Part shown: one piece after another, positions 4,852 to 32,575 of the stretch
Layout: each line of letters begins with the position of its first letter
Numbering within the stretch: the stretch's first letter is position 1
IMG/VR virus record: IMGVR_UViG_3300008448_000186
Location: 1-43,531 of that record
Length of the DNA: 43,531 nt
Source of the DNA: a virus
Strand: one strand, 5' to 3'
Notes under the pieces: generated by a model
Database searches by the model: none
Told to the model about the DNA's origin: nothing
What the model saw: the letters and a program-made list of their open reading frames with translations, nothing else
Translations under genes and position numbers: made by a program

Positions 4852-5133
4852 ATGAACTACATAAACCAAGACGACGAACTGGAGAACGAGTCAGGACTGC
4901 CTGAGCCAGACGAGTTCGACATCCTGCAAGAACTTTATACGCAGGAACGGATGGCTAACGACTTCCTGATTGAAAGACTCAAAGCCCTAGCCTCTGCCCA
5001 ACCCGAGGAAGCCCTGCAAGGCATCCGAGACATCCTGACCGATGGCTATGCGTACTTTGGGGAGCAGCGACCTTGGGATCGCCCGAGCATCACATCCCTA
5101 CTGCCAAACAACCAACAACTTGACCTGTTCTAG
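4852..5133 (+). CDS. Acidic early protein ending in a beta-clamp-binding motif
   Basis: The product is a 93-residue acidic protein, Asp/Glu-rich at the N-terminus and helical in the middle. The last five residues are QLDLF, the canonical pentapeptide that binds the pocket of the bacterial DNA polymerase III beta clamp. It is preceded by a loose, Pro-rich tail (RPWDRPSITSLLPNNQ), as expected for an exposed clamp-binding peptide. The rest matches no family I recognise. The ATG follows ACAGGAGAACACC. A reasonable hypothesis is that it contacts the host clamp to divert or inhibit host replication, or to recruit the clamp to phage DNA. The peptide is seen; the role is inferred. Confidence 0.75.
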   Translation: MNYINQDDELENESGLPEPDEFDILQELYTQERMANDFLIERLKALASAQPEEALQGIRDILTDGYAYFGEQRPWDRPSITSLLPNNQQLDLF

Positions 5134-14935: not shown

Positions 14936-15612
14936 TGAAAATCTTTATCGGTTGGGATAGCCGCGAGGACATCGCGTATCAAGTCTGCAAAAGATCTCTG
15001 GAGAAGCATACGTCTGTGCCGTTGGAGATTACTCCGATCAAGCAGCAGGAGATGCGCGACCGTAACTTGTACTGGCGTGAGCATGACCCGCTCTCGTCTA
15101 CGGAGTTCTCTTTCACCCGCTTCTTGGTTCCATACCTTGCAGGATACAAAGGTTGGGCGGTGTTCATGGACTGTGACTTCATGTGGCGAGGTGACATCGC
15201 TGCGCTTGAGGACTACATGAACCCGTACTACGGCGTGGTTGTGGTCAAGCATGACTACAAACCGAAGGAGTCCACCAAGATGGACGGCAAAGTGCAGCAT
15301 CAGTACCCACGCAAGAACTGGAGCAGCATGATCCTGTGGAATTGTGAGCACCTGCATATCAAGGCGTTGACCCCCGAGGTCGTGAACCGCGAATCAGGCA
15401 TGTATCTGCATCAACTCAGATTCCTGTGGGACGCATGTATCGGGGATCTGCCCATCGCCTATAACTACTTGGAGGGATGGCATACAAAGGACGACTGCCC
15501 AAACCCGCAAGCCGTCCACTTCACCCGAGGTGGGCCATGGTTCAAGGATTGGGTAGACGTTGAGTACGGTAAAGAATGGATGAACGTAGCCAAAGAGGTG
15601 GTACATGAGTGA
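14935..15612 (+). CDS. GT-A (GT8-like) glycosyltransferase
   Basis: The product has 225 residues from the ATG at 14935 (TGATG overlap; a GTG one codon earlier is possible). KIFIGWDSREDIAYQVCKRS at the N-terminus and the DxD motif FMDCDFMW (about residues 78-85) are typical of a nucleotide-sugar transferase, with a C-terminal AVHFTRGGPW. It resembles the GT-A part of the preceding protein in its Asp-box and histidine-ending layout. It overlaps the next gene by 8 bp. Confidence 0.82.
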   Translation: MKIFIGWDSREDIAYQVCKRSLEKHTSVPLEITPIKQQEMRDRNLYWREHDPLSSTEFSFTRFLVPYLAGYKGWAVFMDCDFMWRGDIAALEDYMNPYYGVVVVKHDYKPKESTKMDGKVQHQYPRKNWSSMILWNCEHLHIKALTPEVVNRESGMYLHQLRFLWDACIGDLPIAYNYLEGWHTKDDCPNPQAVHFTRGGPWFKDWVDVEYGKEWMNVAKEVVHE

Positions 15613-15880
15613 GATCAACAAAGAAATTCTGGAAGACGATGAGGCGTATCTCATCGTGCCGCAGGAACACGCCAAGGTAATCGCTACACCCGAAACACCG
15701 TGGGCCAAGATTGATGACGAGGGGCAACTGGAACTGCTGCGATGGGACATCGTGGAGATGTACGCCATGGAATACGACTCGCTAGGACGCAACGGCAAAA
15801 CCAAGTCGCAGACACACGTTATCTGTAAGTTGTTGGTGTTGGTGCGCGACCAAGTGAGGAAAGAGTATGCCAGTCGATAA
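15605..15880 (+). CDS. Small acidic hypothetical protein
   Basis: This 91-residue protein begins inside the glycosyltransferase end and overlaps the next gene by 14 bp. It is acidic at the N-terminus (NKEILEDDEAYLIVPQEHA), with a helical C-terminus ending in basic residues. I recognise no family. Its position hints at a link with the sugar cassette, or simply at a compact operon. Confidence 0.6.
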   Translation: MSEINKEILEDDEAYLIVPQEHAKVIATPETPWAKIDDEGQLELLRWDIVEMYAMEYDSLGRNGKTKSQTHVICKLLVLVRDQVRKEYASR

Positions 15881-16076
15881 CGAATCCGAGCCGGGGGCAT
15901 GGGAGCGCGAGATCGAGCGCATGCCTTGGAAGTTTCAGCAGGAGCAGAAAGTAGGTTGGGCGTTGTCCCAGATGCGGCTGCGTGGGATGTTCAAGGAAGC
16001 CGAGATCCTGACTCAAGAGATTGTTACGTTAAAAACTGAACTAGAAAGCCTACGTAAGCCTAAGATTGGCCCATGA
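15867..16076 (+). CDS. Small coiled-coil hypothetical protein
   Basis: This 69-residue helical protein ends in a coiled-coil-like segment EAEILTQEIVTLKTELESLR. It starts within the previous gene, with a ribosome site-like GAGGAAAGAGT. No family was recognised. The similar 74-residue protein at 16910 also ends in a short E/L/K coiled coil. Confidence 0.6.
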   Translation: MPVDNESEPGAWEREIERMPWKFQQEQKVGWALSQMRLRGMFKEAEILTQEIVTLKTELESLRKPKIGP

Positions 16077-16084
16077 TTGAAACA

Positions 16085-16113
16085 ATAACACCGCCTTTTT
16101 GGTTTCTTATAAT
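16085..16113 (+). promoter_or_regulatory. Possible promoter with perfect -10, almost abutting the GNAT start
   Basis: ATAACA (16085-16090, 4 of 6) and a perfect TATAAT (16108-16113) are separated by 17 bp. The predicted start near 16120 leaves at most two bases before the ATG at 16122, which has no Shine-Dalgarno. This would give an essentially leaderless message. Confidence 0.5.
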
Positions 16114-16121
16114 CCCCGATC

Positions 16122-16547
16122 ATGGGGGTTACGTACCAGCAAATAGATCTGGAGGAGCGGGGCGTCAAGCGACGTTTGACCCTGCTTCAGAAGGCTTGCT
16201 TGCCGAACGACAAACTCTACTTCCCGCAAGACGGCGTGTGGTGGATGGCGTATCATCGAACGACACCTGTGGGCTTCGGGTGCGTCAGTCCGTCCAAGCA
16301 GTTGGCAGACGGGGTGTACCTAGGCAGGTGTGGGGTTCTTCCTGCGTATCGGGGTCGCGGGATACAACGTCAGATGATTCGTCTGCGCGTGGCTTGGGCA
16401 AGGCGGCACGGCTACAAGTGGGCCGTATCGGACACGACAGACAACATCCCAAGCGCCAACAATCTGATCTCGTGTGGCTTCAGACTTTATGTTCCCGAGG
16501 TGCAGTACTCGTTTGCCCGAGCATTGTACTGGAGGAAGAAGTTGTAG
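16122..16547 (+). CDS. GNAT-family N-acetyltransferase
   Basis: The product has 141 residues. The acetyl-CoA loop GVLPAYRGRGIQRQM (residues 71-85) is a textbook GNAT motif A, preceded by a beta strand WWMAYHRTTPVGFGCV and followed by SDTTDNIPSANNLISCGF, typical of motif B. The substrate is unknown; next to a sugar cassette, an amino-sugar or a virion or host protein is possible. The start is uncertain because no ribosome site precedes the ATG. A longer overlapping frame in another phase (16073-16888) is a shadow. Confidence 0.85.
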   Translation: MGVTYQQIDLEERGVKRRLTLLQKACLPNDKLYFPQDGVWWMAYHRTTPVGFGCVSPSKQLADGVYLGRCGVLPAYRGRGIQRQMIRLRVAWARRHGYKWAVSDTTDNIPSANNLISCGFRLYVPEVQYSFARALYWRKKL

Positions 16548-16934
16548 GTGCCGATCAAAGACCCAGTACTACGCCGCGAGATGCAAAAGATCTATTCGCA
16601 GCGTTGGTATCAACGGAACCAAAAACAACAAGTTGCCAAGAATCTAAAACGCAAAGACAGCGTTCGGAAACTGTGGAACGAATACAAGGCTGCTCAGAAA
16701 TGCAGTCATTGCGGGTTTCAGCACCCCGCCGTCATCGACTTCCATCACATCATCAAAGAAGGCAAGAAATCAGTCAACAAACTTGCCACTCAGAGAAACA
16801 ACTTAAAAGCGGCAATCCGCGAAGCCGAAGAGAAGTGCATCCCCCTTTGCTCGAACTGCCACCGCATACTGCACTGGCAAGAACATAAACAACGTAGGAA
16901 AAAACGAAAGTGGAAATCGAAGATGACATCCTAG
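16548..16934 (+). CDS. HNH endonuclease-like zinc protein
   Basis: This 128-residue, very basic protein starts at GTG directly after the GNAT stop, with GGAGGAAGAAG upstream. Zinc ligands are Cys52-Cys55 (CSHC) and Cys101-Cys104 (CSNCHRILHW), and the catalytic-like core is VIDFHH (64-67). This is the standard arrangement of small phage HNH nucleases, which may be free-standing homing nucleases or packaging-related nicking enzymes. The C-terminus is a Lys/Arg tail overlapping the next gene by 25 bp. Confidence 0.78.
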   Translation: MPIKDPVLRREMQKIYSQRWYQRNQKQQVAKNLKRKDSVRKLWNEYKAAQKCSHCGFQHPAVIDFHHIIKEGKKSVNKLATQRNNLKAAIREAEEKCIPLCSNCHRILHWQEHKQRRKKRKWKSKMTS

Positions 16935-17252: not shown

Positions 17253-19063
17253 AGTTACTTACAGTAGACTTTGAGACGTACTATGACAAGGCGTTCTCGT
17301 TGTCGAAATTAACCACGGAGGAATACATCCGTGACGACCGCTTTGAGGTTATAGGCGTAGCGGTTCAAGTGGATGATGATCCTCCCGAGTGGTTCAGTGG
17401 CACACAGAAAGAAACAGCTGCGTGGTTGAATCAATTTGATTGGGGCAACTCATTTGTGCTCGCGCACAACACGCAGTTTGACGGGCCTATCTTGTCTTGG
17501 CTCTTCGGCATCAAACCGAAAGGATGGCTAGATACGCTCTGCATGGCGCGAGCGATACACGGGGTGGAAGCAGGGGGGAGCCTCAAGGCTCTAGCCGAGC
17601 GGTATAAGTTGGGAGCAAAAGGCGATGAAGTCATTAACGCGCTTGGTAAACGCCGTGTGGATTTTTCTGGAGAAGATCTTGATCGGTATGGTGCTTATTG
17701 CCGCAATGATGTTCGTCTTACTTATGATTTATTTACCAAGTTGGTTAACGGATTCCCTCAGAAAGAACTGAAGGTCATCGACCTGACCCTACGCATGTTT
17801 GTCGAGCCGGTGCTTGAACTGAACCTGCCGTTATTGGAAGCCCACCTTGAAACAGTAAAGGAGAAAAAGGCCAAACTTCTTGCAGCGGCTGAAGCCGACC
17901 GTGACTCGTTGATGAGCAACGACAAGTTCGCAGATTTGCTAACTAGGCTTGGGGTAGACCCACCGAAGAAGATAAGCCCACGCACACAGAAAGAAACATG
18001 GGCGTTTGCCAAGACAGACGAGGAGTTCAAGGAACTACTGACCCATCCTGACCCGCGAGTCCAAACCCTCGTCGGTGCTAGGCTTGGCACTAAGACCACC
18101 TTGGAGGAGACCCGCACTCAGAGGTTTATGGATATCGCTTTGCGGGGCAACCTGCCGGTACCGATTAGATACTACGCCGCTCACACCGGCAGATGGGGCG
18201 GGGACGACAAGATCAACCTTCAGAACCTGCCGCGAGAAAGCAAACTGAAGCATGCGATTGTGGCCCCCGAGGGGTATGTCATGATCGACTGCGACTCCTC
18301 GCAGATTGAAGCCCGTACCGTGGCGTGGATTGCAGGGCAGCAGGACTTGGTTAATGCGTTCGACAAGGGTGAGGACGTATACAAGATCATGGCGTCGGCT
18401 ATTTACAACGTGCCGATTGACGAAGTAAACAAGACCCAAAGATTTGTCGGAAAAACGACCATCCTTGGTGCCGGGTACGGCATGGGGGCCATCAAGTTCC
18501 AGACGCAGTTGAAGGCGTTTAACGTAGATGTTGATCTCGATGAGTGCCAGAAGATCATTACCGTCTATCGTGAGACCTACCCGAACATCCCCGCACTTTG
18601 GCGGCAAGGGCAACGCTGCTTGGAAGCCATCCTGATCAAGAAGGCTTGCGAGTTTGGTGTGGTCGATGCGGTGCAGTTTGACCCACGCGAGAGCGGCTTT
18701 TTGCTACCGAGCGGGTTGTGGCAGCGGTATGAAGGGCTGCGCAAAGTAGATGACGGTGATAAGACCCAGTACGAGTACGTCACTCGCAAAGGCGCGGTTA
18801 AGATCTATGGTGGGAAGGTAGTTGAAAATCTTTGTCAGGCCGTGGCAAGATGCGTGATCGCTGAGCAAATGTTGAAGATTTCTAAACGCTACCGGGTTGT
18901 GTTGACCGTGCATGACGCTATTGCTTGTATCGCACCAGAAGCCGAGGCTGAAGAAGCGCAACGGTATGTTGAGGAGTGCATGAGGTGGCGTCCTGCGTGG
19001 GCTTCCGCACTGCCGTTGAACTGCGAGTCAGGTATGGGCAAGAGTTACGGTGACTGTCAATGA
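17249..19063 (+). CDS. polA: Family A DNA polymerase with 3'-5' exonuclease, Leu762 type
   Basis: This 604-residue replicative polymerase starts at the ATG at 17249 in the ATGA overlap. Exonuclease motifs: DFET (Asp7, Glu9), AHNTQFDG (Asn74, Asp78) and YCRND (Tyr150, Asp154). Polymerase motif A is DSSQIEAR (Asp349-Arg356), motif B runs from Arg398 and Lys402 to Tyr410-Gly411, and motif C is VHD (554-556). There is no 5' nuclease domain. At the place equivalent to E. coli Pol I Phe762 (Arg+8) this enzyme has Leu406. Leu-type viral PolA proteins have been linked to slower or temperate replication styles. Stop and next start overlap by ATGA. Confidence 0.95.
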   Translation: MKLLTVDFETYYDKAFSLSKLTTEEYIRDDRFEVIGVAVQVDDDPPEWFSGTQKETAAWLNQFDWGNSFVLAHNTQFDGPILSWLFGIKPKGWLDTLCMARAIHGVEAGGSLKALAERYKLGAKGDEVINALGKRRVDFSGEDLDRYGAYCRNDVRLTYDLFTKLVNGFPQKELKVIDLTLRMFVEPVLELNLPLLEAHLETVKEKKAKLLAAAEADRDSLMSNDKFADLLTRLGVDPPKKISPRTQKETWAFAKTDEEFKELLTHPDPRVQTLVGARLGTKTTLEETRTQRFMDIALRGNLPVPIRYYAAHTGRWGGDDKINLQNLPRESKLKHAIVAPEGYVMIDCDSSQIEARTVAWIAGQQDLVNAFDKGEDVYKIMASAIYNVPIDEVNKTQRFVGKTTILGAGYGMGAIKFQTQLKAFNVDVDLDECQKIITVYRETYPNIPALWRQGQRCLEAILIKKACEFGVVDAVQFDPRESGFLLPSGLWQRYEGLRKVDDGDKTQYEYVTRKGAVKIYGGKVVENLCQAVARCVIAEQMLKISKRYRVVLTVHDAIACIAPEAEAEEAQRYVEECMRWRPAWASALPLNCESGMGKSYGDCQ

Positions 19064-19722
19064 CTTCTTACAGTTGGTCTTATTCGTCCTTGGACTTGTT
19101 CCAACAATGCCCTCACAAGTACTACCGGCTGAAAGTCAAGAAGGACATCAAGGAGCCGCTCAGTGACCATCTTGTATACGGGCTAGACGTTCACAAGGCT
19201 GCTGAAAACTACATCAAAGACGGCACTGCGGTGCCGGAAAAATTTGCCTTTCTTGTACCAATCCTAGAGAAGTTGAAGGAGTACGAGGGCGAGAAGTTAT
19301 GCGAGTACCGCATGGGGCTGACCAAGAATCTGGAGCCGTGCGGCTTCTTTGATCGGGGGGTCTGGTGGCGGGGCGTGGCTGACCTGATCATCTTGAACGG
19401 GGACTCCGCGAAGATCGTTGACTACAAGACTGGCAAGTCTGCCAAACATGCCGATACCAAGCAGTTGGAGATCCTGTCGCTGGCGGTGTTCAAACACTTC
19501 CCACAGATTAAGCGCGTCAAGGGTGGGCTGCTGTTTGTGATATCGAATGAGTTCGTGAAAGGGGACTTTGACACAGACCAGAGCCACATCTACTGGCAAC
19601 GATGGCTGACCGGAACGGCGCAGTTGGAGAAAGCGTTTGAAGTGAACGTCTGGAACCCGCGCCCCAACTTCACATGTAGGAAATGGTGTCCTGTTAAGGA
19701 CTGCACACACAACGGGAGATGA
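19060..19722 (+). CDS. Cas4/RecB-like exonuclease with Fe-S cysteines
   Basis: This 220-residue PD-(D/E)XK nuclease has a RecB/Cas4 layout: N-terminal YSSLDLFQQCPHKYY with Cys17, His45 in GLDVHKA, Asp108 in GVADLI, Asp121-Lys123 in VDYKTGK and Gln135 in TKQLEIL. Three C-terminal cysteines (206, 210, 215, in FTCRKWCPVKDC) with Cys17 make a probable 4Fe-4S site, as in Cas4 and AddB. In phages such enzymes process DNA ends for recombination or replication. No cas1 or cas2 is present, so a CRISPR role is not implied. It is co-translated with polA. Confidence 0.88.
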   Translation: MTSYSWSYSSLDLFQQCPHKYYRLKVKKDIKEPLSDHLVYGLDVHKAAENYIKDGTAVPEKFAFLVPILEKLKEYEGEKLCEYRMGLTKNLEPCGFFDRGVWWRGVADLIILNGDSAKIVDYKTGKSAKHADTKQLEILSLAVFKHFPQIKRVKGGLLFVISNEFVKGDFDTDQSHIYWQRWLTGTAQLEKAFEVNVWNPRPNFTCRKWCPVKDCTHNGR

Positions 19723-19724
19723 AC

Positions 19725-19976
19725 ATGGCTAGGAACTACAAGCACGAGTACGAGACGTACCAAGGAAAACCTGAACAGAAAAAGAACCGCGCCAAGCGAA
19801 ACGCAGCACGTGCCGAGATGATGCGGGCTGGCCGCGTACGTAAAGGCGACGGTAAAGATGTTGATCACAAGCAGCCACTGAGCAAAGGCGGCTCCACGAG
19901 TAAGGCCAACCTGCGAGTGACCAGCATTCACGCCAACCGCGCATACAAACGACAAAAGGATCGGAAACCTGCCTAA
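19725..19976 (+). CDS. Small HNH-type endonuclease
   Basis: The product is an 83-residue basic protein. I prefer the ATG at 19725 (7 nt after GGGAG) to the one at 19719, which touches the ribosome site. DVDHKQPLSKGGS followed by ANLRV and SIHANR is the compact HNH core (Asp-His, Asn, His). Proteins of this kind in replication operons may nick DNA or act in packaging. The stop TAA overlaps the next ATG (TAATG). Confidence 0.8.
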   Translation: MARNYKHEYETYQGKPEQKKNRAKRNAARAEMMRAGRVRKGDGKDVDHKQPLSKGGSTSKANLRVTSIHANRAYKRQKDRKPA

Positions 19977-21526
19977 TGCAGATCATCGAGAACAAAGCGT
20001 TGCTGATCAAGGTGCGGGAACCGGGGCGCATAACCTCTGTCATACGCACGGCAAAGCAATTGAACGACACCGACGTGCTTGTCAGATGGGGCGTGGAAGA
20101 AGCGCAGATCCTCAAGAACCTGCGGCTCAAGGACGTACCGTCCCCGATTATGCGAGATTACGCATGGCCCGGTTTGCAAAAGCCGTTCAAGCACCAGTAC
20201 GACACGGCGTCGTTCTTAACTCTGCACCGACGGGCGTTTTGCTTCAACGAGCAAGGTACTGGTAAGACTGCATCGGCTATCTGGGCTGCGGATTACCTGC
20301 TTGAACAAGGGCTTATCCGAAGAGTATTGGTGCTATGCCCACTGTCCATCATGCAGTCGGCATGGGAGACGGATCTATTCAAGTTTGCAACCCACCGGAC
20401 GTGTGCGATTGCGCACAGTTACTCCAAGGAGAAGCGCATCAAGGCGGTTGAAAGCGATGCCGAGTTCGTGATCTGTAACTACGACGGTCTTGACATCGTG
20501 AAAGATGCTGTCGCAAAGGGCGGCTTTGATTTGATAATCATCGACGAGGCGAACGCCTACAAAAACGTCAGCACGAAACGCTGGAAGGTACTGAACTACA
20601 TCATTAATCCTACAACATGGATATGGATGATGACGGGCACCCCTGCAGCGCAGACTCCGACAGATGCCTACGGGCTAGCCAAGATCGTCAACCCAAATGG
20701 GGTACCAAAATTTTTTGGGTCGTTTCGTGATCAGGTGTTGTTCAAAGTATCGCAGTTCCGCTGGGTGCCTAAGCCTTCGGCACAACAAACTGTACACAAC
20801 GCGCTACAACCAGCAATACGTTTTACCAAAGACGAATGCTTGGATTTGCCTGAGATGACGTACGTCATGCGCGATGTGCCGTTGACTACCCAGCAGAAAA
20901 CGTACTACGAAGAGATTCGTAAACAGATGCTTACGATTGCTGCGGGGGAGGAGATTACCGCCGTGAACGCAGCGGCTAGTCTAAACAAACTGTTACAACT
21001 TTCATGTGGCGCGGTCTACTCGGATAGTGGAGAGATCATTGCGTTCGATGCCAAGAACCGCATGGCTGCACTCATGGAGGTCATTGAGGAAGCCAGTCAA
21101 AAGGTGATCATATTTGCCCCCTTCCGGCACGCCATTGAGATAATTGCGGAAGAACTAAAAAACAACAAGATCACCTGCGAGATTATCAACGGCGCAGTAC
21201 CCGCCAGTAGGCGCACGGAGATCTTCAAGAAGTTTCAAGAGAACCCAGACCCCCGCGTACTTGTGATCCAGCCACAGGCTGCGGCGCATGGCGTGACGTT
21301 GCATGCTGCCAACGTGGTTGTCTGGTGGGGGCCGATAACGTCTATTGAGACTTATTTACAGGCCAACGCCCGTGTCCATCGTGCGGGCCAACATCACCCT
21401 TGCACAGTAGTACACTTGCAGGGCAGCCCTGTTGAAAAACGTATCTACAAGATGCTATCGCAAAAGTTGGATGTGCATACCAAGTTGATCGAGTTGTACA
21501 ACAATTTAGTAGCGGAGGTTGCTTGA
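19976..21526 (+). CDS. SNF2-family helicase
   Basis: The product is a 516-residue SF2 ATPase. Motifs: HQYDTASF (Q-like region), Walker A NEQGTGKT (91-98), DEAN box IIIDEANAYKN (Asp190), motif III MMTGTP, then in the second RecA domain IIFAPFRHAI, QPQAAAHGVTLHAANVVVWWGP (motif V) and ANARVHRAGQ (motif VI). This is the compact phage SNF2-like type with no chromatin-related additions. It probably translocates on duplex DNA during replication or recombination, beside polA and the Cas4-like nuclease. Confidence 0.93.
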   Translation: MQIIENKALLIKVREPGRITSVIRTAKQLNDTDVLVRWGVEEAQILKNLRLKDVPSPIMRDYAWPGLQKPFKHQYDTASFLTLHRRAFCFNEQGTGKTASAIWAADYLLEQGLIRRVLVLCPLSIMQSAWETDLFKFATHRTCAIAHSYSKEKRIKAVESDAEFVICNYDGLDIVKDAVAKGGFDLIIIDEANAYKNVSTKRWKVLNYIINPTTWIWMMTGTPAAQTPTDAYGLAKIVNPNGVPKFFGSFRDQVLFKVSQFRWVPKPSAQQTVHNALQPAIRFTKDECLDLPEMTYVMRDVPLTTQQKTYYEEIRKQMLTIAAGEEITAVNAAASLNKLLQLSCGAVYSDSGEIIAFDAKNRMAALMEVIEEASQKVIIFAPFRHAIEIIAEELKNNKITCEIINGAVPASRRTEIFKKFQENPDPRVLVIQPQAAAHGVTLHAANVVVWWGPITSIETYLQANARVHRAGQHHPCTVVHLQGSPVEKRIYKMLSQKLDVHTKLIELYNNLVAEVA

Positions 21527-26245: not shown

Positions 26246-26274
26246 CCCCCGACGTTCTGTCGGGGGTCTTTTTT
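26244..26274 (+). terminator. Intrinsic terminator at the convergence of early and late units
   Basis: A perfect 10-bp stem GACCCCCGAC / GTCGGGGGTC with loop GTTCT is followed by six T residues (26269-26274). It ends plus-strand early transcription. The T tract overlaps the stop codon of the convergent 2100-residue gene. On the minus strand the same hairpin has no T tract, so it should stop late transcription poorly. Confidence 0.95.
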
Positions 26275-29200
26275 ACTCAACTTCGTCTGTTACGCCGAGT
26301 TCTTCGTAGATACCACGAGCCACTTTGGGGTTTACCGTTACGCCGTTGACGGATGTCGCCAACTTCTTGGTGCGTCGCTGGACGGCTTCGTAAAGCGTAT
26401 CGTATGTAATTCCAAGACTTGGATACTTACGGCTGAACTGCACCGCCTCCTCAACGGATTCTCGGAACCCATCCACATCCCCACTCATTCGCGCTACGGC
26501 AGCACGGGCGATAATTGCATTGCGGCGCTGGAAGATCTTGCTCTCCATACGCTTAGTTGCACCGGCAATATCTCCTGCTTCGGCTACATCGCTCGGACGG
26601 AATCCGAATATCTGCATGAAAGCATTGTAGGCATTGACATCTTCTACCAGCGGAACGCCCTTCGCGGTCAACGCACCTTCGGTAGCGTATCGGAATCCTT
26701 TGGAAACATTGGAGACAGCGCGGGGCATCAACTGCTCAAACGCCCGCTGATAGTTCCCATCTTCTATGTATTCAGCCACTCGCGGCAAACCAACCGCGTA
26801 AGAGTACGCAGGGCCAAGAGCCTGCTCCACTGCGTAAGTTATGGGCCCAACTTCAGCCATGCGCTTAGGATCTTCGCGCCAGAACATACCCGTCCAACCC
26901 GTGCGGCTAGCGATGTCGATTCCAAACAAGTAGTTGATCGGGCCCTTGTATGCAAACAACCCGACGGCTTCTCGTAGCGCAAAGTCTGCATCGTACGGCT
27001 CGTCATCGTCGCCCAATATACCGTTCAATACCGTGACAAGCGCGGCACCCGCACCGACTAGGGGCATGCCCTGCACGCCCGCCGATACAAACGCGGTGGC
27101 GAAATACCCAATAATCTCCTTGCGCGCAGCATCCCGAATGACTTTTGAGTCCGGATCGTTGGGGTCAAGGTCTCTCGTAGCCTCTTTGTATGCAGCCTGC
27201 AAGAGGTTGATGCGCTTGATACCAAACCGCTTGAACGTCAATGCCGTCTTGGCGATATCGCTTCCCATGATGGGTGCGGTAGCCTTGGGGAAAGACGATC
27301 CATAAACATCCGCTACAACGCTTTGGGCTACATCAAAAGCGGCTTGGTCAAAGACATCTGGCGGAGTTTTGTTTTTGGCTTTCTGCAGGTCGTATGCAGC
27401 AATCAACCCCACTTCACGGTTGAACATATCGGACTTCGCAAACGCCCAAGAAGTAATACGGTCAACGTTGGCTTTTAGTTTTTCCCATCTGGAACTGAGA
27501 TTCTTGAACTCCGCGATGTCTTGCAGGCGTTGCTCACGGATGATGCCACTGTCCAACCCACGCTGGATCAACTCCTGCATCTCAGGAGACTTTTGCTTGC
27601 TGAAAAATATGCTGCCCGCTTTTACTAACGAGTTGCCTATGCTGCCAATCTTGTGGCCCTTACCCAGCAGGCGACTCAACAGCACCGTGGGCGTATCAAT
27701 CACGTTGGTAACAGCAGTCGAGATGTTGGCTCCCAAATATAATTGGAAACTCGCGTAGCCAAGTTGCGCCCCTATACCACTGAGGTTGGGATTCTGCACG
27801 AAATCTATGTATCGGGTTGCGTAGTAATTCAAATCTTCAGCGACATCAGAACTTATGACTCCTCTGTCCCGCGCATTGGCGGTAGCCACTTTCAGTTCTT
27901 CCTGAAGTTCAAAGTACTTGGGCTGGAACTCCATCTTCACTATACGACGTGCGTAACTGTCCGATACGTTTGCGTACGCTTTCAGCACGTCATTTGAGTA
28001 CCCAGCGGGAGTCACTTCCTGCCTTCGACGCCCACGCTGCAATACGGAATCGGTGGGCAGGTAATCCAAGTAATGCTCAATCACATCCGCTACGATGTCG
28101 TCATTTACCCCCGCTTCCTTCATATCTCCAACGATATCGGCAAGGAAACTGGACGGCGGGATATCTTGAATCCTACGTTCTTCTACGCGGGACTCGATGA
28201 TTGAATTGGGGTCTACCCCTTCACGGAGTATTTCTTGTCGTGCGGCGCTTCGCTCTGCAGATGATTCAAACTGCAACGCCACGGGGTTGCCCGCTCTGTC
28301 TGTGTAAGAGAGTTTGAAGTTACCTTGACGGAACAACGGCAGGTACACACGCACGCGCTGCTCGTTGAGTTTGCTTAAAATCTTTTGCCACTGGGCGGGA
28401 GTCAGGTACTGCTGCAACTGTTTTTCAACAGCCAAAGCGTTATCGACGTACCCAAGGCGCAATCCCTTGTACACACCTTTTAATGCGGGGTCACGGTTAA
28501 AGATTGCAGAAAGTTGTTTGTAGAGCGGATGGTCTACATCTGCCTTCCAATTGATGTTACGAGCCGGGTCTACAAGATCTAGCACCTCGACGCCAAATAC
28601 TTCTTTCTCTTTAACCTTGCCTTTGGCAGTAACTACCTGCACCTTTGTCTTGGTAGTAGTCGTAGCCATGAACAGGTCACGAATTTTGTTTTGTTCGGCC
28701 TCGGAATACTTCTCCATGACCTTTCCCCATTTGGTCATGTTATCCATGAGCGTGTCTTGCATCTTGCGGAGTTCAGTGCCTTCTTGATTGGCGTTCTTCC
28801 ACAATTTTTCTAACACGTCGGATTTGAGATCCTTGCTGTAAATGCGTCCCATTTCGTGCGGGTCATACAGGGTATACAGCACACGGCGCATGCCAGTCGG
28901 TAGGTTAGATGCCGCATTTCGCGCCGCTTCATACGTTTCCTTGGTCGCCGCAGGCAGACTTTGCGAGATTTTACCGACGGCATTGACGAAGGCACGATCT
29001 CCCTTGCGCTGCGCTTCCGGGCTACGCTGGTAACGAACCGCTGGATTGAACGGATCGTAGGGGGCTTTCTTGCCTTTGATTACGCGGCGATGCGCCTGCT
29101 TCAAGATCTGATTAACGTCGTTATCGGAATAAGTCGAGACCAACCCGCGCTGCCGCATGAAGTTGCGGATATATGCAGCCACCCGACCGTACGCAGCGCG

Positions 29201-32200
29201 CAGCCAAGACTCTTTAATTGGCCCTGTTTCAGAACGCTCTGCAAGAACTTCCTCAACTGCAGTCGCTGCGTCAAGGCCAAACTTCTCCATGCGCGTTTTA
29301 GCCGCAGCCTGCATCTTGGGGTTGGTATCGTAGATACCCTGCATGACATCCTGCAGCCCACCTTGGAACTCTTGCTCAAGGCCGTAGTGCCCAAGGCTTT
29401 CATGGAACACAGTGCCGCGCACGGTGGCCTCGTCCTTGGCCCGGTCGGCTAGAACGTAAGTAGTTTCGTTTACGTAAAAGCCCGGCGCGTCTTCAGGAAT
29501 TTGTTTGCGGATGTTCTCCGGAATAACCGGATCGTTCACACTGCTTGCAACAACTACTTTGGGGGCGTTAGTCCAAGTACGGACGGCATCGTCGGCTACG
29601 GCACGAGCACGATCAATTGGAAGGCCAGCACCAATTTTGCCACGTTGGGCAAGAATGCTTTCTTTGGTTGTATCAAACGCACCTACGTTACCAACGGCAG
29701 ATTTTACCGAAGTTCCTTTTCCCCAAGCGTAGATATCAGATGGATAGGAATAAAGTCGTTCTGGATCTGTTTCTACATTTGCTCTTGGTCCGTAATCAAT
29801 AACTTGTCTAGCAACTAAAACTTCGCCGGGACGAAGCCTTTGTGCCTGTCTGTCAAATTCAAATTTGTCAAAACGACGATACCCTTCTTTGTTTATTTGA
29901 ACAGGAAATTCGATTAATTTGTTTGCCTTTACATAAAGCGGAGTAACAGCCCCAGCCTCTCCTTCAAACTCAGGTTGCCCGTACGTAGCAGCAAGTTGTG
30001 GGGATGTGCTTGCAAATGTGGCGTAACCCTCTCTTGCTTTTCCTTCTAAGGCTCCTTCCGGAATATTTTTTGCGCCAACGGCTCCTCGATAAAGCACCAG
30101 TGGCTTACCTTCTTGATCAACAGCCTTGCTGTCCCCAAACCAGTTTTTAAACTGCGGCGTGCCCACTTGCGGGTTGTACGTACGCTGGAACTTAATCCCT
30201 TTACGCCCCGGCTTAACCTCGCCAGAAAGAACTTTCTCCACCACGCCAAAGTTAGGCACCGGGCGCTTCAACTGCTCCGTGATCTGGGTGTACGTTCTTT
30301 CATCAATCTGGTCGTTATCAAACGCATCAATGGCTTGCGTACGTAACGCGCTTCTACGATCCGTGACTTGATTAATGGCCTGTTGAGAAACTTGTTGTTG
30401 AATATCACGACGTTCTTGATTTACAGGCAGGCCCGCAGCCCTTAGCGTTTCCTGTCGAATTTCTTGCCTACGCTTGTCGTCCCACGCTCGTTTGAGAGAA
30501 TCAAGTTGCTGTTTTAGCGCATCAAACTGCTCACGTTTAGGACTGCCAATAGCAGGTAATTTTCCGTCTTTGCTCAACAAAGACAGCGCTTGATTTTTAA
30601 CCGCTTCGGCTTCATCAAAAATTTGATCTGACGTTTTTTCTGTCAGTGTAGGTTCGACCGTCCCCGCTCCAACATCAGTTCGTGTAACAGTCTCGCCAGC
30701 ATCAGCCATTCCCTGTTCTCCAACTCCAGCAGTTGGGGGTGCTTTGGTTCTTGGCTGCTGTACAGACACTCCAGCCCCTCTTCGAGGGCGGGCAGGCTTA
30801 ACTTCTGGGCCACTTCGTACACGTTCCGCTCCTACGGGAGTCAACTCCCATTCATTTACTCGATTATTGAACGCTATCGCACCTTCCTTTTTGAGGTCGC
30901 CTATTGCTTTTTGCAACTCCATCGGGCGCAACTGAGTCGCAAACTTGAGGTTCGGAATGTTCTTCTTGTCTTCCGTAATCGCCATGGCCCGCAACACACG
31001 GTCACGAGGAGCAAGCCTCTCCATGGGCATGCCGGGAAGATTGAGCGCCATTTGCTCTTTGGGTACTTCTATTGTTGGCACTTCAACCGTAGGCTCTTGC
31101 CGTGTAAACGGTACAGTGGACCCCGCTGGTATCGGCTCTTGAGCAAACAGGTCTCCTTGCCCTTCAAATGTCGAGGGCAGCGTAAGTGGCAACTGCTGTT
31201 GCGACTCAAACTCAAAGCGTTCCTGATCAGGCGATACCTGTGCAGTTATATCCGGCACAAACTGATTGGGTTTGAGATTGCCCTTGCGGTCCAGTTTTAG
31301 CCCAAGGTCTTTGGCTTCTTCTTTGTACGCACGTGAGCGCGGGCGCAAATCAGCAAGTGCTTCTTCTGCGGGACGATAAACGCCCGGTATAGCCTCGCCG
31401 GGTTCAGTCGGAGCCAACAAGTCTAACTGAGCAGCACCCCCAACGAGTGGTAGGCCCATCTGGTCTTCTTCGCCAAGAGGACGACGACGTGCTTCATCAC
31501 GTGCGCGAAGTGCAGCATCGTATTGGGCTAGATAATCTAAATCATCCTTGCTGGCTTCATCTTGCTCTTGCTTTTCAATAGCCGCACGCAAACGGTCATC
31601 TTGAGTGGCAAGGAAACGTAGTTCACGGGCACGTCGTTCTATTTCCTCACGGCGGTCAATCGCAGAGACCGGCTCTTCCTCAGTAACTGCAGGAGCCTCA
31701 GCAACGGGAGTCTCGGCAGGAGGTGCAGGTTCTTCTTCACGCCTTTCAGGTGCCGACTCAACGCCGCGTAAACGGCGGCCCAATGCAAGGTCGGCAATCG
31801 CGCTAACTATTGCACCGGCTCCGCCACCTGTTGCAGCGGCTTCGCCCACACCACCAAACACTTCCTCATCAGGCGCATATACGCCCTTGGCAATAAGGTT
31901 CTGCAGGACTTGACTGCTGGCTTCTTGGAGTGCTTCTTCACCACCCGCTTGGGCTGCACGACGCAGCGCCGGAGCAAATCCAGCGACTTCTTCAATAGCC
32001 TCATCACCAAATCCAAGGCGACGGAGAATACGTATGGGGGGCAGTGCTTCTAACGCGCCTACCGGCGCTCCCAATGCTGTGGCCGCAGCCCGTTCGCCTT
32101 CGGTGGCCTCCTCTTCTTCGGCTCTTTGACGGGCTTCACCAGCACCTGCGCTTACGCCTAGCCCTGTAGCAGCGATCCGTCCAGCCGCGCCCAATGCACC

Positions 32201-32575
32201 TAGTGGAAGAAACGGCAGGGTTGAGCCTACGGCTTCACTCAATTTACGTACCGTAGTGTCTTCATAACCCGGTGCTGGAGCAAACCGCTCACGTACGCTT
32301 TCAGCAAACTCACTAACTGGGCGGCGTATGGCTTCTTCAGCCTCATCTGGCAGAAGTGCAGCGGCACCCGTAATAGCGGTTTCGCCCAGTCCTACGGCAC
32401 CGGGGACAAGCCCTTTCAGGGCTTCCTTGGCGTAGCCACCGAAGGTACGTTCTTCAGGTTCTTCAAACCCACTAACGTCATACCCACCAGCCCGAAGTTT
32501 GCTCATCAATTGAGCACGGGTAGTGCCTTCAGGAACGTTCCTGATTATGGTGCCATCAGGCAGTCTTACGTCCAT
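26273..32575 (-). CDS. Giant polyvalent virion protein (ART-like and metallopeptidase-like domains)
   Basis: This 2100-residue protein is probably packaged and ejected into the host. A short N-terminal domain and an Ala/Gly-rich amphipathic region (about 45-270) are followed by a disordered Glu/Pro linker with several QxxLxL/QxDLF peptides (372-513). Residues about 805-970 resemble the ART-PolyVal domain: FKNWFGDSKAVD, LVLYRG and TFASTSPQLAATYG. Residues about 1000-1145 hold HESLGHYGL (1058-1066) and EEVLAE, like the polyvalent-protein metallopeptidase. The C-terminal 900 residues look like the conserved core of internal virion proteins. No good ribosome site precedes its ATG, so coupling to the gene 8 bp upstream is likely. 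Confidence 0.8.
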   Translation of the reverse strand: MDVRLPDGTIIRNVPEGTTRAQLMSKLRAGGYDVSGFEEPEERTFGGYAKEALKGLVPGAVGLGETAITGAAALLPDEAEEAIRRPVSEFAESVRERFAPAPGYEDTTVRKLSEAVGSTLPFLPLGALGAAGRIAATGLGVSAGAGEARQRAEEEEATEGERAAATALGAPVGALEALPPIRILRRLGFGDEAIEEVAGFAPALRRAAQAGGEEALQEASSQVLQNLIAKGVYAPDEEVFGGVGEAAATGGGAGAIVSAIADLALGRRLRGVESAPERREEEPAPPAETPVAEAPAVTEEEPVSAIDRREEIERRARELRFLATQDDRLRAAIEKQEQDEASKDDLDYLAQYDAALRARDEARRRPLGEEDQMGLPLVGGAAQLDLLAPTEPGEAIPGVYRPAEEALADLRPRSRAYKEEAKDLGLKLDRKGNLKPNQFVPDITAQVSPDQERFEFESQQQLPLTLPSTFEGQGDLFAQEPIPAGSTVPFTRQEPTVEVPTIEVPKEQMALNLPGMPMERLAPRDRVLRAMAITEDKKNIPNLKFATQLRPMELQKAIGDLKKEGAIAFNNRVNEWELTPVGAERVRSGPEVKPARPRRGAGVSVQQPRTKAPPTAGVGEQGMADAGETVTRTDVGAGTVEPTLTEKTSDQIFDEAEAVKNQALSLLSKDGKLPAIGSPKREQFDALKQQLDSLKRAWDDKRRQEIRQETLRAAGLPVNQERRDIQQQVSQQAINQVTDRRSALRTQAIDAFDNDQIDERTYTQITEQLKRPVPNFGVVEKVLSGEVKPGRKGIKFQRTYNPQVGTPQFKNWFGDSKAVDQEGKPLVLYRGAVGAKNIPEGALEGKAREGYATFASTSPQLAATYGQPEFEGEAGAVTPLYVKANKLIEFPVQINKEGYRRFDKFEFDRQAQRLRPGEVLVARQVIDYGPRANVETDPERLYSYPSDIYAWGKGTSVKSAVGNVGAFDTTKESILAQRGKIGAGLPIDRARAVADDAVRTWTNAPKVVVASSVNDPVIPENIRKQIPEDAPGFYVNETTYVLADRAKDEATVRGTVFHESLGHYGLEQEFQGGLQDVMQGIYDTNPKMQAAAKTRMEKFGLDAATAVEEVLAERSETGPIKESWLRAAYGRVAAYIRNFMRQRGLVSTYSDNDVNQILKQAHRRVIKGKKAPYDPFNPAVRYQRSPEAQRKGDRAFVNAVGKISQSLPAATKETYEAARNAASNLPTGMRRVLYTLYDPHEMGRIYSKDLKSDVLEKLWKNANQEGTELRKMQDTLMDNMTKWGKVMEKYSEAEQNKIRDLFMATTTTKTKVQVVTAKGKVKEKEVFGVEVLDLVDPARNINWKADVDHPLYKQLSAIFNRDPALKGVYKGLRLGYVDNALAVEKQLQQYLTPAQWQKILSKLNEQRVRVYLPLFRQGNFKLSYTDRAGNPVALQFESSAERSAARQEILREGVDPNSIIESRVEERRIQDIPPSSFLADIVGDMKEAGVNDDIVADVIEHYLDYLPTDSVLQRGRRRQEVTPAGYSNDVLKAYANVSDSYARRIVKMEFQPKYFELQEELKVATANARDRGVISSDVAEDLNYYATRYIDFVQNPNLSGIGAQLGYASFQLYLGANISTAVTNVIDTPTVLLSRLLGKGHKIGSIGNSLVKAGSIFFSKQKSPEMQELIQRGLDSGIIREQRLQDIAEFKNLSSRWEKLKANVDRITSWAFAKSDMFNREVGLIAAYDLQKAKNKTPPDVFDQAAFDVAQSVVADVYGSSFPKATAPIMGSDIAKTALTFKRFGIKRINLLQAAYKEATRDLDPNDPDSKVIRDAARKEIIGYFATAFVSAGVQGMPLVGAGAALVTVLNGILGDDDEPYDADFALREAVGLFAYKGPINYLFGIDIASRTGWTGMFWREDPKRMAEVGPITYAVEQALGPAYSYAVGLPRVAEYIEDGNYQRAFEQLMPRAVSNVSKGFRYATEGALTAKGVPLVEDVNAYNAFMQIFGFRPSDVAEAGDIAGATKRMESKIFQRRNAIIARAAVARMSGDVDGFRESVEEAVQFSRKYPSLGITYDTLYEAVQRRTKKLATSVNGVTVNPKVARGIYEELGVTDEVE

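Follow-up and report, generated by a model that had tools for sequence, protein, structure and literature searches.

Gene content of the window and the large polyvalent protein

The window, i.e., the whole stretch of DNA analysed, comprises the 43,531 bases of the IMG/VR record IMGVR_UViG_3300008448_000186 and comes from a freshwater virus of bacteria. No end repeats were detected, and the record is probably a fragment of the genome, as it showed no portal or capsid genes. The plus strand half holds replication genes (family A DNA polymerase, exonuclease, SNF2-type helicase and DUF927 primase-helicase) and the minus strand half the late genes, coding for a terminase, an endolysin, a virion structural protein, three large proteins and a protein of 2100 amino acids (26273-32575). 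The gene of the latter adjoins those of the 560-, 735- and 1162-residue proteins and of the virion structural protein (phrog_3287), all on the same strand, and the 735-residue neighbour gives a weak match to a DNA-ejection protein. A search with part of the window found no close DNA relative in the phage collection, and the contigs of bacterial species genomes contained no relatives of the N-terminal or C-terminal alignment of the large protein. Elsewhere in the window, an Arg/Ser/Gln-rich ORF of 271 amino acids (16073-16888) shares its DNA with other reading frames and is unlikely to be a true gene.

The 2100-residue product, a member of a DarB-like PHROG family, combines several disparate domains, as polyvalent proteins do. 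All of its features lie on the minus strand. The C-terminal LPD38/LPD39-type region (residues 1381-2086, 26318-28435) matches phrog_10089 with an E-value of 3.7e-48, LPD39 being weak in the homologues. A putative ADP-ribosyltransferase (ART) domain occupies residues 820-967 (29675-30118), with a weak match to the Pfam ART-PolyVal family (PF18760, E 2.2e-4, under the curated cut-off), and is replaced in homologues. It is followed by the sequence HESLGH (residues 1058-1063, 29387-29404), which has the HEXXXH form of the zincin metallopeptidase motif, a set reported in polyvalent proteins (PMC5512222). At the other end, a Gly/Ala-rich helical region (residues 50-270, 31766-32428) is 60-80% identical in relatives and was modelled by AlphaFold with low confidence (13 sequences, mean pLDDT 55 for the model). 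The model contains two disordered pieces with pLDDT below 50, residues 368-396 (31388-31474) and 446-514 (31034-31240), separated by a small confident module (residues 400-441, 31253-31378, pLDDT about 85), and immediately beyond them a predicted winged-helix domain (residues 520-590, 30806-31018, pLDDT about 87). The top Foldseek matches of this last domain were mostly winged-helix DNA-binding domains, the best at a non-significant E of 0.13, i.e., a hint at the level of the fold, and the search with the N-terminal model returned no significant match. Given the gene position and the general argument put forward for polyvalent proteins (PMC5512222), the protein is probably packaged in the virion and ejected into the cell with the DNA; a homologue in Pseudomonas phage 8P carries the annotation "structural protein" (annotation only).

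Five clamp-like peptides in the disordered linker

A preliminary description of this DNA had pointed to five peptides resembling the motifs that bind the bacterial beta sliding clamp (DnaN), and all five were found exactly at the residues given. The first disordered piece holds QMGLPL (residues 372-377, 31445-31462) and QLDLL (383-387, 31415-31429), and the second QLPLTL (461-466, 31178-31195), QGDLF (473-477, 31145-31159) and QMALNL (508-513, 31037-31054). The predicted disorder thus coincides with the two motif-bearing stretches, with a pLDDT below 50 at all five motifs, which would leave them accessible. At the third site, QLPLTL overlaps a second peptide, QQQLPL, starting at residue 459 (31184-31201), and the comparison with homologues suggests that Q..LPL is the conserved register. 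The claim that all five fit the clamp consensus stood in part: under the strict form, Q(L/I/V/A)x(L/M)(F/L) or Q(L/I/V/A)x(L/M)x(F/L) (PMC13254535), QLDLL and QLPLTL agree fully, but two of the others have Met and one has Gly at position 2.

When non-overlapping matches to Q..[LMI]F, Q[LMI].L[LF] and Q..L.L were counted, the linker (residues 270-520) held five, whereas composition-matched shuffles averaged 0.21 and none of 50,000 reached five. The resulting p-value is optimistic, since the patterns were selected so that all five peptides would match, and for the same reason the counts made on other sequences are the fair tests. One alternative is that linkers rich in Q, L and E yield such peptides by themselves, and the window taken alone is compatible with it as far as the pentapeptide Q..[LMI]F is concerned, with one occurrence against 0.20 expected and no significant excess; the shuffles for the whole motif set speak against it, as do the conservation and the independent counts described below.

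The proteins listed for the window gave just two other matches. One is the QLDLF that ends a 93-residue protein, described below, and the other a QLELL at residue 41 of a 91-residue ORF (15605-15880), a possible further clamp-like peptide.

Conservation among close homologues

Four homologues from other viral contigs (L013, L014, L019 and L024), 41-64% identical over their full length to the window protein or to one another, carry arrays of four or five motifs at matching sites: QIGLPL, QLDLL, QQQLPL, QGDLF and QFSLDL in L013; QMELPL, QIPMF, QPELPL, QMDIF and QFALNL in L014; QMELPL, QIPMF, QPDLPM, QMDMF and QYALNL in L024; and QQELPL, QPELDL, QQELPL and QGDLF in L019. The motif count of each of these linkers was reached by 0 or 1 of 20,000 shuffles. 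The letters change from one protein to another, staying inside the motif rules: QGDLF becomes QMDIF or QMDMF at the fourth site, with Q, D and F invariant in five homologues, QLDLL gives way to QIPMF or QPELDL at the second, and QMALNL to QFALNL, QYALNL or QFSLDL at the fifth. A motif number no higher than in shuffles, or poor conservation of the Q and L/F positions, would have spoken against the proposal, and the opposite was found on both counts: for conservation, the mean majority fraction is 0.92 in the anchor columns versus 0.68 in the remaining linker columns (p 0.0003 by permutation). In the first motif the Q and the leucines at positions 4 and 6 are invariant in ten homologues over synonymously varying codons; Leu375 and Leu377 are each encoded by five different Leu codons (CTA, CTG, TTG, CTT and TTA for Leu375).

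Five relatives (L015-L018 and L026) have lost the segment with the third and fourth motifs, keeping the first together with a degenerate fifth (QMGFDL or QTGFNL). The array is absent from L020-L023, even though they share the N-terminal region at 72-84%. The contig of L021 (G019) has two further peculiarities. A 594-residue protein encoded just upstream of its array-free polyvalent gene (L235, 1850-3631) has a QGDMF in a linker, as if the motif had moved to this neighbour, and family A DNA polymerase matches fall in two pieces about 1 kb apart (17910-20788, L021/L235-L236 contig), suggesting an inserted element.

The middle of the polyvalent protein (residues 800-1170 in the window) is swapped among close homologues, ART-like in the window and matching HATPase_c in L024, with both ends conserved. 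The region of the ART-like domain and HESLGH is just 10-30% identical among homologues and L024 has a HATPase_c match in its place; the array is therefore part of a stable chassis whose payload is exchanged.

Recurrence in distant polyvalent proteins

Alignments of the C-terminal region led to more than 140 further loci in viral contigs. We examined the low-hydrophobicity stretches of 27 distinct clusters of polyvalent proteins from uncultured phages (<50% identity), using local shuffles, and found Q..[LMI]F 21 times against 4.1 expected (about 5-fold, 0 of 300 shuffles) and Q..L.L 15 times against 6.0 (0 of 300). A refined pattern, Q.[DE][LM]F, occurred 19 times where 0.40 was expected; because it had been read off this same set, it was re-tested on a hold-out of 12 clusters with <50% identity to every earlier cluster. 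This set gave 12 occurrences, with 0.25 expected, and no match to any of nine control patterns obtained by permutation or substitution. Other patterns were weaker in the hold-out: 7 versus 3.06 for Q..L.L (8 of 200 shuffles), 5 versus 1.56 for the strict pentapeptide (5 of 200) and 3 versus 1.46 for the strict hexapeptide, which was not significant (35 of 200). The 239 other proteins of the same contigs were not enriched (1 versus 0.47 for Q.[DE][LM]F and 3 versus 8 for Q..[LMI]F), and neither were nine polyvalent-type proteins of cultured phages (0 versus 0.21). Shuffles, hold-out, anchor conservation and synonymous codon variation together refute an artefact of composition, and we regard a chance origin of the peptides as extremely improbable.

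At least one motif was present in 23 of the 39 clusters and at least two in 17, with a maximum of six (L109), while 16 had none in their low-hydrophobicity stretches. Kinship limits how these figures should be read, since the site QGEMFGPRGG is common by descent to 8 clusters and the 39 sites reduce to 28 flank groups. The sequence Q.E[LM]FGPRGG(V/I), shared by eight otherwise distant polyvalent proteins (L059, L105, L166, L169, L180, L187, L195 and L207), stands out as the most highly conserved individual motif in the wider family. In the parts that were read, arrays were absent from the C-terminal relatives Pavtok, Skulduggery, Parlo, Atu_ph08, 8P, F116, douglas and RHph_TM3, from DarB of P1 and from the terminase relatives HTVC023P, HTVC027P, DSL-LC04, 023Pt_psg01 and Pag-Yong1. 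The array is optional because it is missing from these cultured relatives, from L020-L023 and from the 16 motif-free clusters. When the whole viral collection was scanned for pairs of neighbouring QG[DE]LF or Q.[DE]LF sites, 12 contigs came up. Their in-frame long ORFs included five clear polyvalent relatives and two large proteins that had no such match; what remained were small proteins or chance. Judged on the sequences, the candidate clamp-peptide array characterises a whole group of related uncultured phages, though as an optional feature.

Peptides of the form Q(G/L)DLF, one or two per protein, also terminate some unrelated small phage proteins (L270, an ORF of 248 amino acids; L279, 166; L272/L274, 416), which are possible further clamp binders.

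Small proteins with clamp motifs and a probable use of the host clamp

The window also codes, on the plus strand with the replication genes, for an early protein of 93 amino acids (4852-5133) whose last five residues are QLDLF (residues 89-93, 5116-5130), in a tail that AlphaFold predicts as disordered (pLDDT < 50). This motif, already noticed in the preliminary description, is confirmed and is kept as QL[DE]LF in 14 of 14 homologues, while the residues preceding it vary. Small clamp-motif proteins unrelated to this family were found in three further array phages: in two of them, proteins of 62-63 residues ending in QLNLFK lie between a PHROG-27714 protein and the DUF927 primase-helicase, and in the third a 90-residue protein begins with MEQMELF. 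Another contig codes for an HTH-like protein of 84 residues with QLELDL near its end. Among 662 small ORFs, four had a terminal Q[LM][DESN][LM]F, against 0.03 expected. The PHROG-27714 proteins are neighbours in the replication module with an acidic C-terminus, and possibly bind single-stranded DNA; two of them (L076, 11589-12575, and L084, 10005-10961) carry QIDIF/QQDLF in their tails, in phages whose polyvalent proteins are array-free.

Neither the N-terminal nor the C-terminal domain of DnaN was detected in 20 contigs including the window, mostly fragments, in searches whose controls responded, and a phage-encoded clamp was rejected as partner on these grounds. The small clamp-motif proteins, the PHROG-27714 tails and the lack of a detected DnaN together suggest that replication in these phages makes use of the host clamp.

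The partner of the peptides

The exact textbook peptides QLDLF, QLSLF, QLGLF and QLNLF occur in the arrays or in the companion proteins. So does QLSLPL, the motif of Hda in E. coli. The conserved anchors of clamp-binding motifs (Q, L/M and L/F) are present both in the array and in the 93-residue protein. The peptides fit the published rules, which ask for Q at position 1, an aliphatic residue preferred but with tolerance at 2, L/M at 4, F/L at 5 or 6, and acidic surroundings, and which go with QLDLF as the strongest peptide (PMC11139829, PMC13254535). The phage peptides resemble the motifs of Pol III alpha, Pol II, Pol IV, Pol V, Hda and RecB in their form, Q-x-x-(L/M)-(F/L) or Q-x-x-L-x-L, in their disordered and often acidic surroundings, and in the exact QLNLF and QLDLF of arrays and companions (PMC11139829). 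They differ in that one phage polyvalent protein holds two to six copies and in that position 2 is most often Gly across the wider family.

This glycine, present in 22 of the 39 wider-family sites, is the misfit with the rules and weakens binding to the E. coli clamp (PMC11139829). Combined with the near-obligatory Asp/Glu at position 3 it makes a pattern narrower than the clamp consensus, and raises the main rival concerning the identity of the partner: the peptides could dock on a scaffold, portal or ejection protein by which the polyvalent protein is loaded into the capsid, or on another host protein with a similar pocket. The QGDMF in the 594-residue neighbour of the polyvalent gene of L021's contig would agree with this. 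However, the same peptide ends small non-structural proteins whose genes accompany those for replication on the opposite strand, and capsid loading does not need the array because relatives with the same chassis lack it. Furthermore, the QG[DE][LM]F sites sit in the same arrays as QLDLF, QLSLF, QLGLF and QADLF, which argues for a single partner, perhaps bound by weak single sites working through avidity. We consider a different partner quite unlikely, and the motifs probably are clamp-binding peptides under selection. The proposal of repeated targeting of the clamp or a related pocket is supported in part: the motifs are not due to chance, conserve their anchors and recur in distant linkers including the hold-out, and a related pocket stays a candidate because of the predominance of Gly at position 2 in the wider family.

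A proposed docking region for the host clamp

The reading that we favour, and hold as a whole to be somewhat probable, is that the linker provides multivalent docking on the host beta sliding clamp, with tethering as its purpose. The large polyvalent protein would enter the cell together with the phage DNA, and the five peptides of the two disordered stretches would dock on DnaN, followed along the chain by the winged helix and the enzymatic payload (ART-like domain and HEXXXH motif). Single peptides would be weak, and avidity and rebinding would hold the protein, or a fragment freed by its own peptidase, on DNA-loaded clamps near the phage DNA and the host forks. This docking would precede the synthesis of the early small clamp-motif protein. 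The most likely gain would be that the payload reaches sites of replication and repair and that the phage replisome (family A polymerase and DUF927 primase-helicase) acquires the clamp.

The main functional rival keeps the same partner, and the same motif evidence, and makes the array an inhibitor: by filling the hydrophobic pockets of beta it would block Pol III, the clamp loader or RecBCD, stopping host replication or repair early. There are precedents, since Gp168 of phage Twort shows that phages inhibit beta, through the DNA channel (PMC11139829), a clamp-binding motif is the means by which the SocB toxin inhibits replication (PMC9690074) and RecB has a validated clamp motif (PMC13254535). 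Nevertheless, the phages themselves appear to depend on the host clamp, having no clamp of their own that we could find and clamp motifs on early or replication-module proteins; the few ejected copies could hardly titrate the clamps of a cell, and peptides of the QGDLF type are expected to be weak. Titration of the clamp appears unlikely to us.

The phage-type polyvalent proteins described by Iyer et al. (2017, PMC5512222), whose C-termini are LPD38/39 and DarB-like, share with the 2100-residue protein the C-terminal region, the ART-like domain, the HEXXXH motif and a gene located beside late or virion genes, but the cultured DarB-like members examined have no arrays, and the word "clamp" does not occur in that paper. 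Like Twort Gp168 it would be a phage protein aimed at the host clamp, although Gp168 binds the DNA channel and not the peptide pocket (PMC11139829). A further parallel comes from PCNA-binding proteins with several PIP/APIM motifs, where several clamp peptides also lie in one disordered partner and avidity has been discussed (PMC11139829), for a eukaryotic clamp and a different consensus. Our literature search, which covered few subscription papers, yielded no paper that mentions both a polyvalent protein and a clamp-binding motif. Motif and protein class had each been described before; multi-copy arrays that unite the two did not turn up in that literature.

Polyvalent proteins are known by their enzymatic domains, and a clamp-docking array, if true, would give them a concrete cellular address, the DNA-loaded beta clamps. 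It would also provide natural proteins with up to six clamp motifs, when the effect of several motifs per protein has been named as not understood for the bacterial clamp in a recent review (PMC11139829), and natural multivalent ligands of an antibiotic target. More tentatively, it is possible that for a broad group of clamp-less, uncultured aquatic podovirus-like phages the host clamp is the landing site of ejected effectors, where arrays would carry a swappable payload to host and phage forks before any phage expression, and small early proteins would then take over the same pocket.
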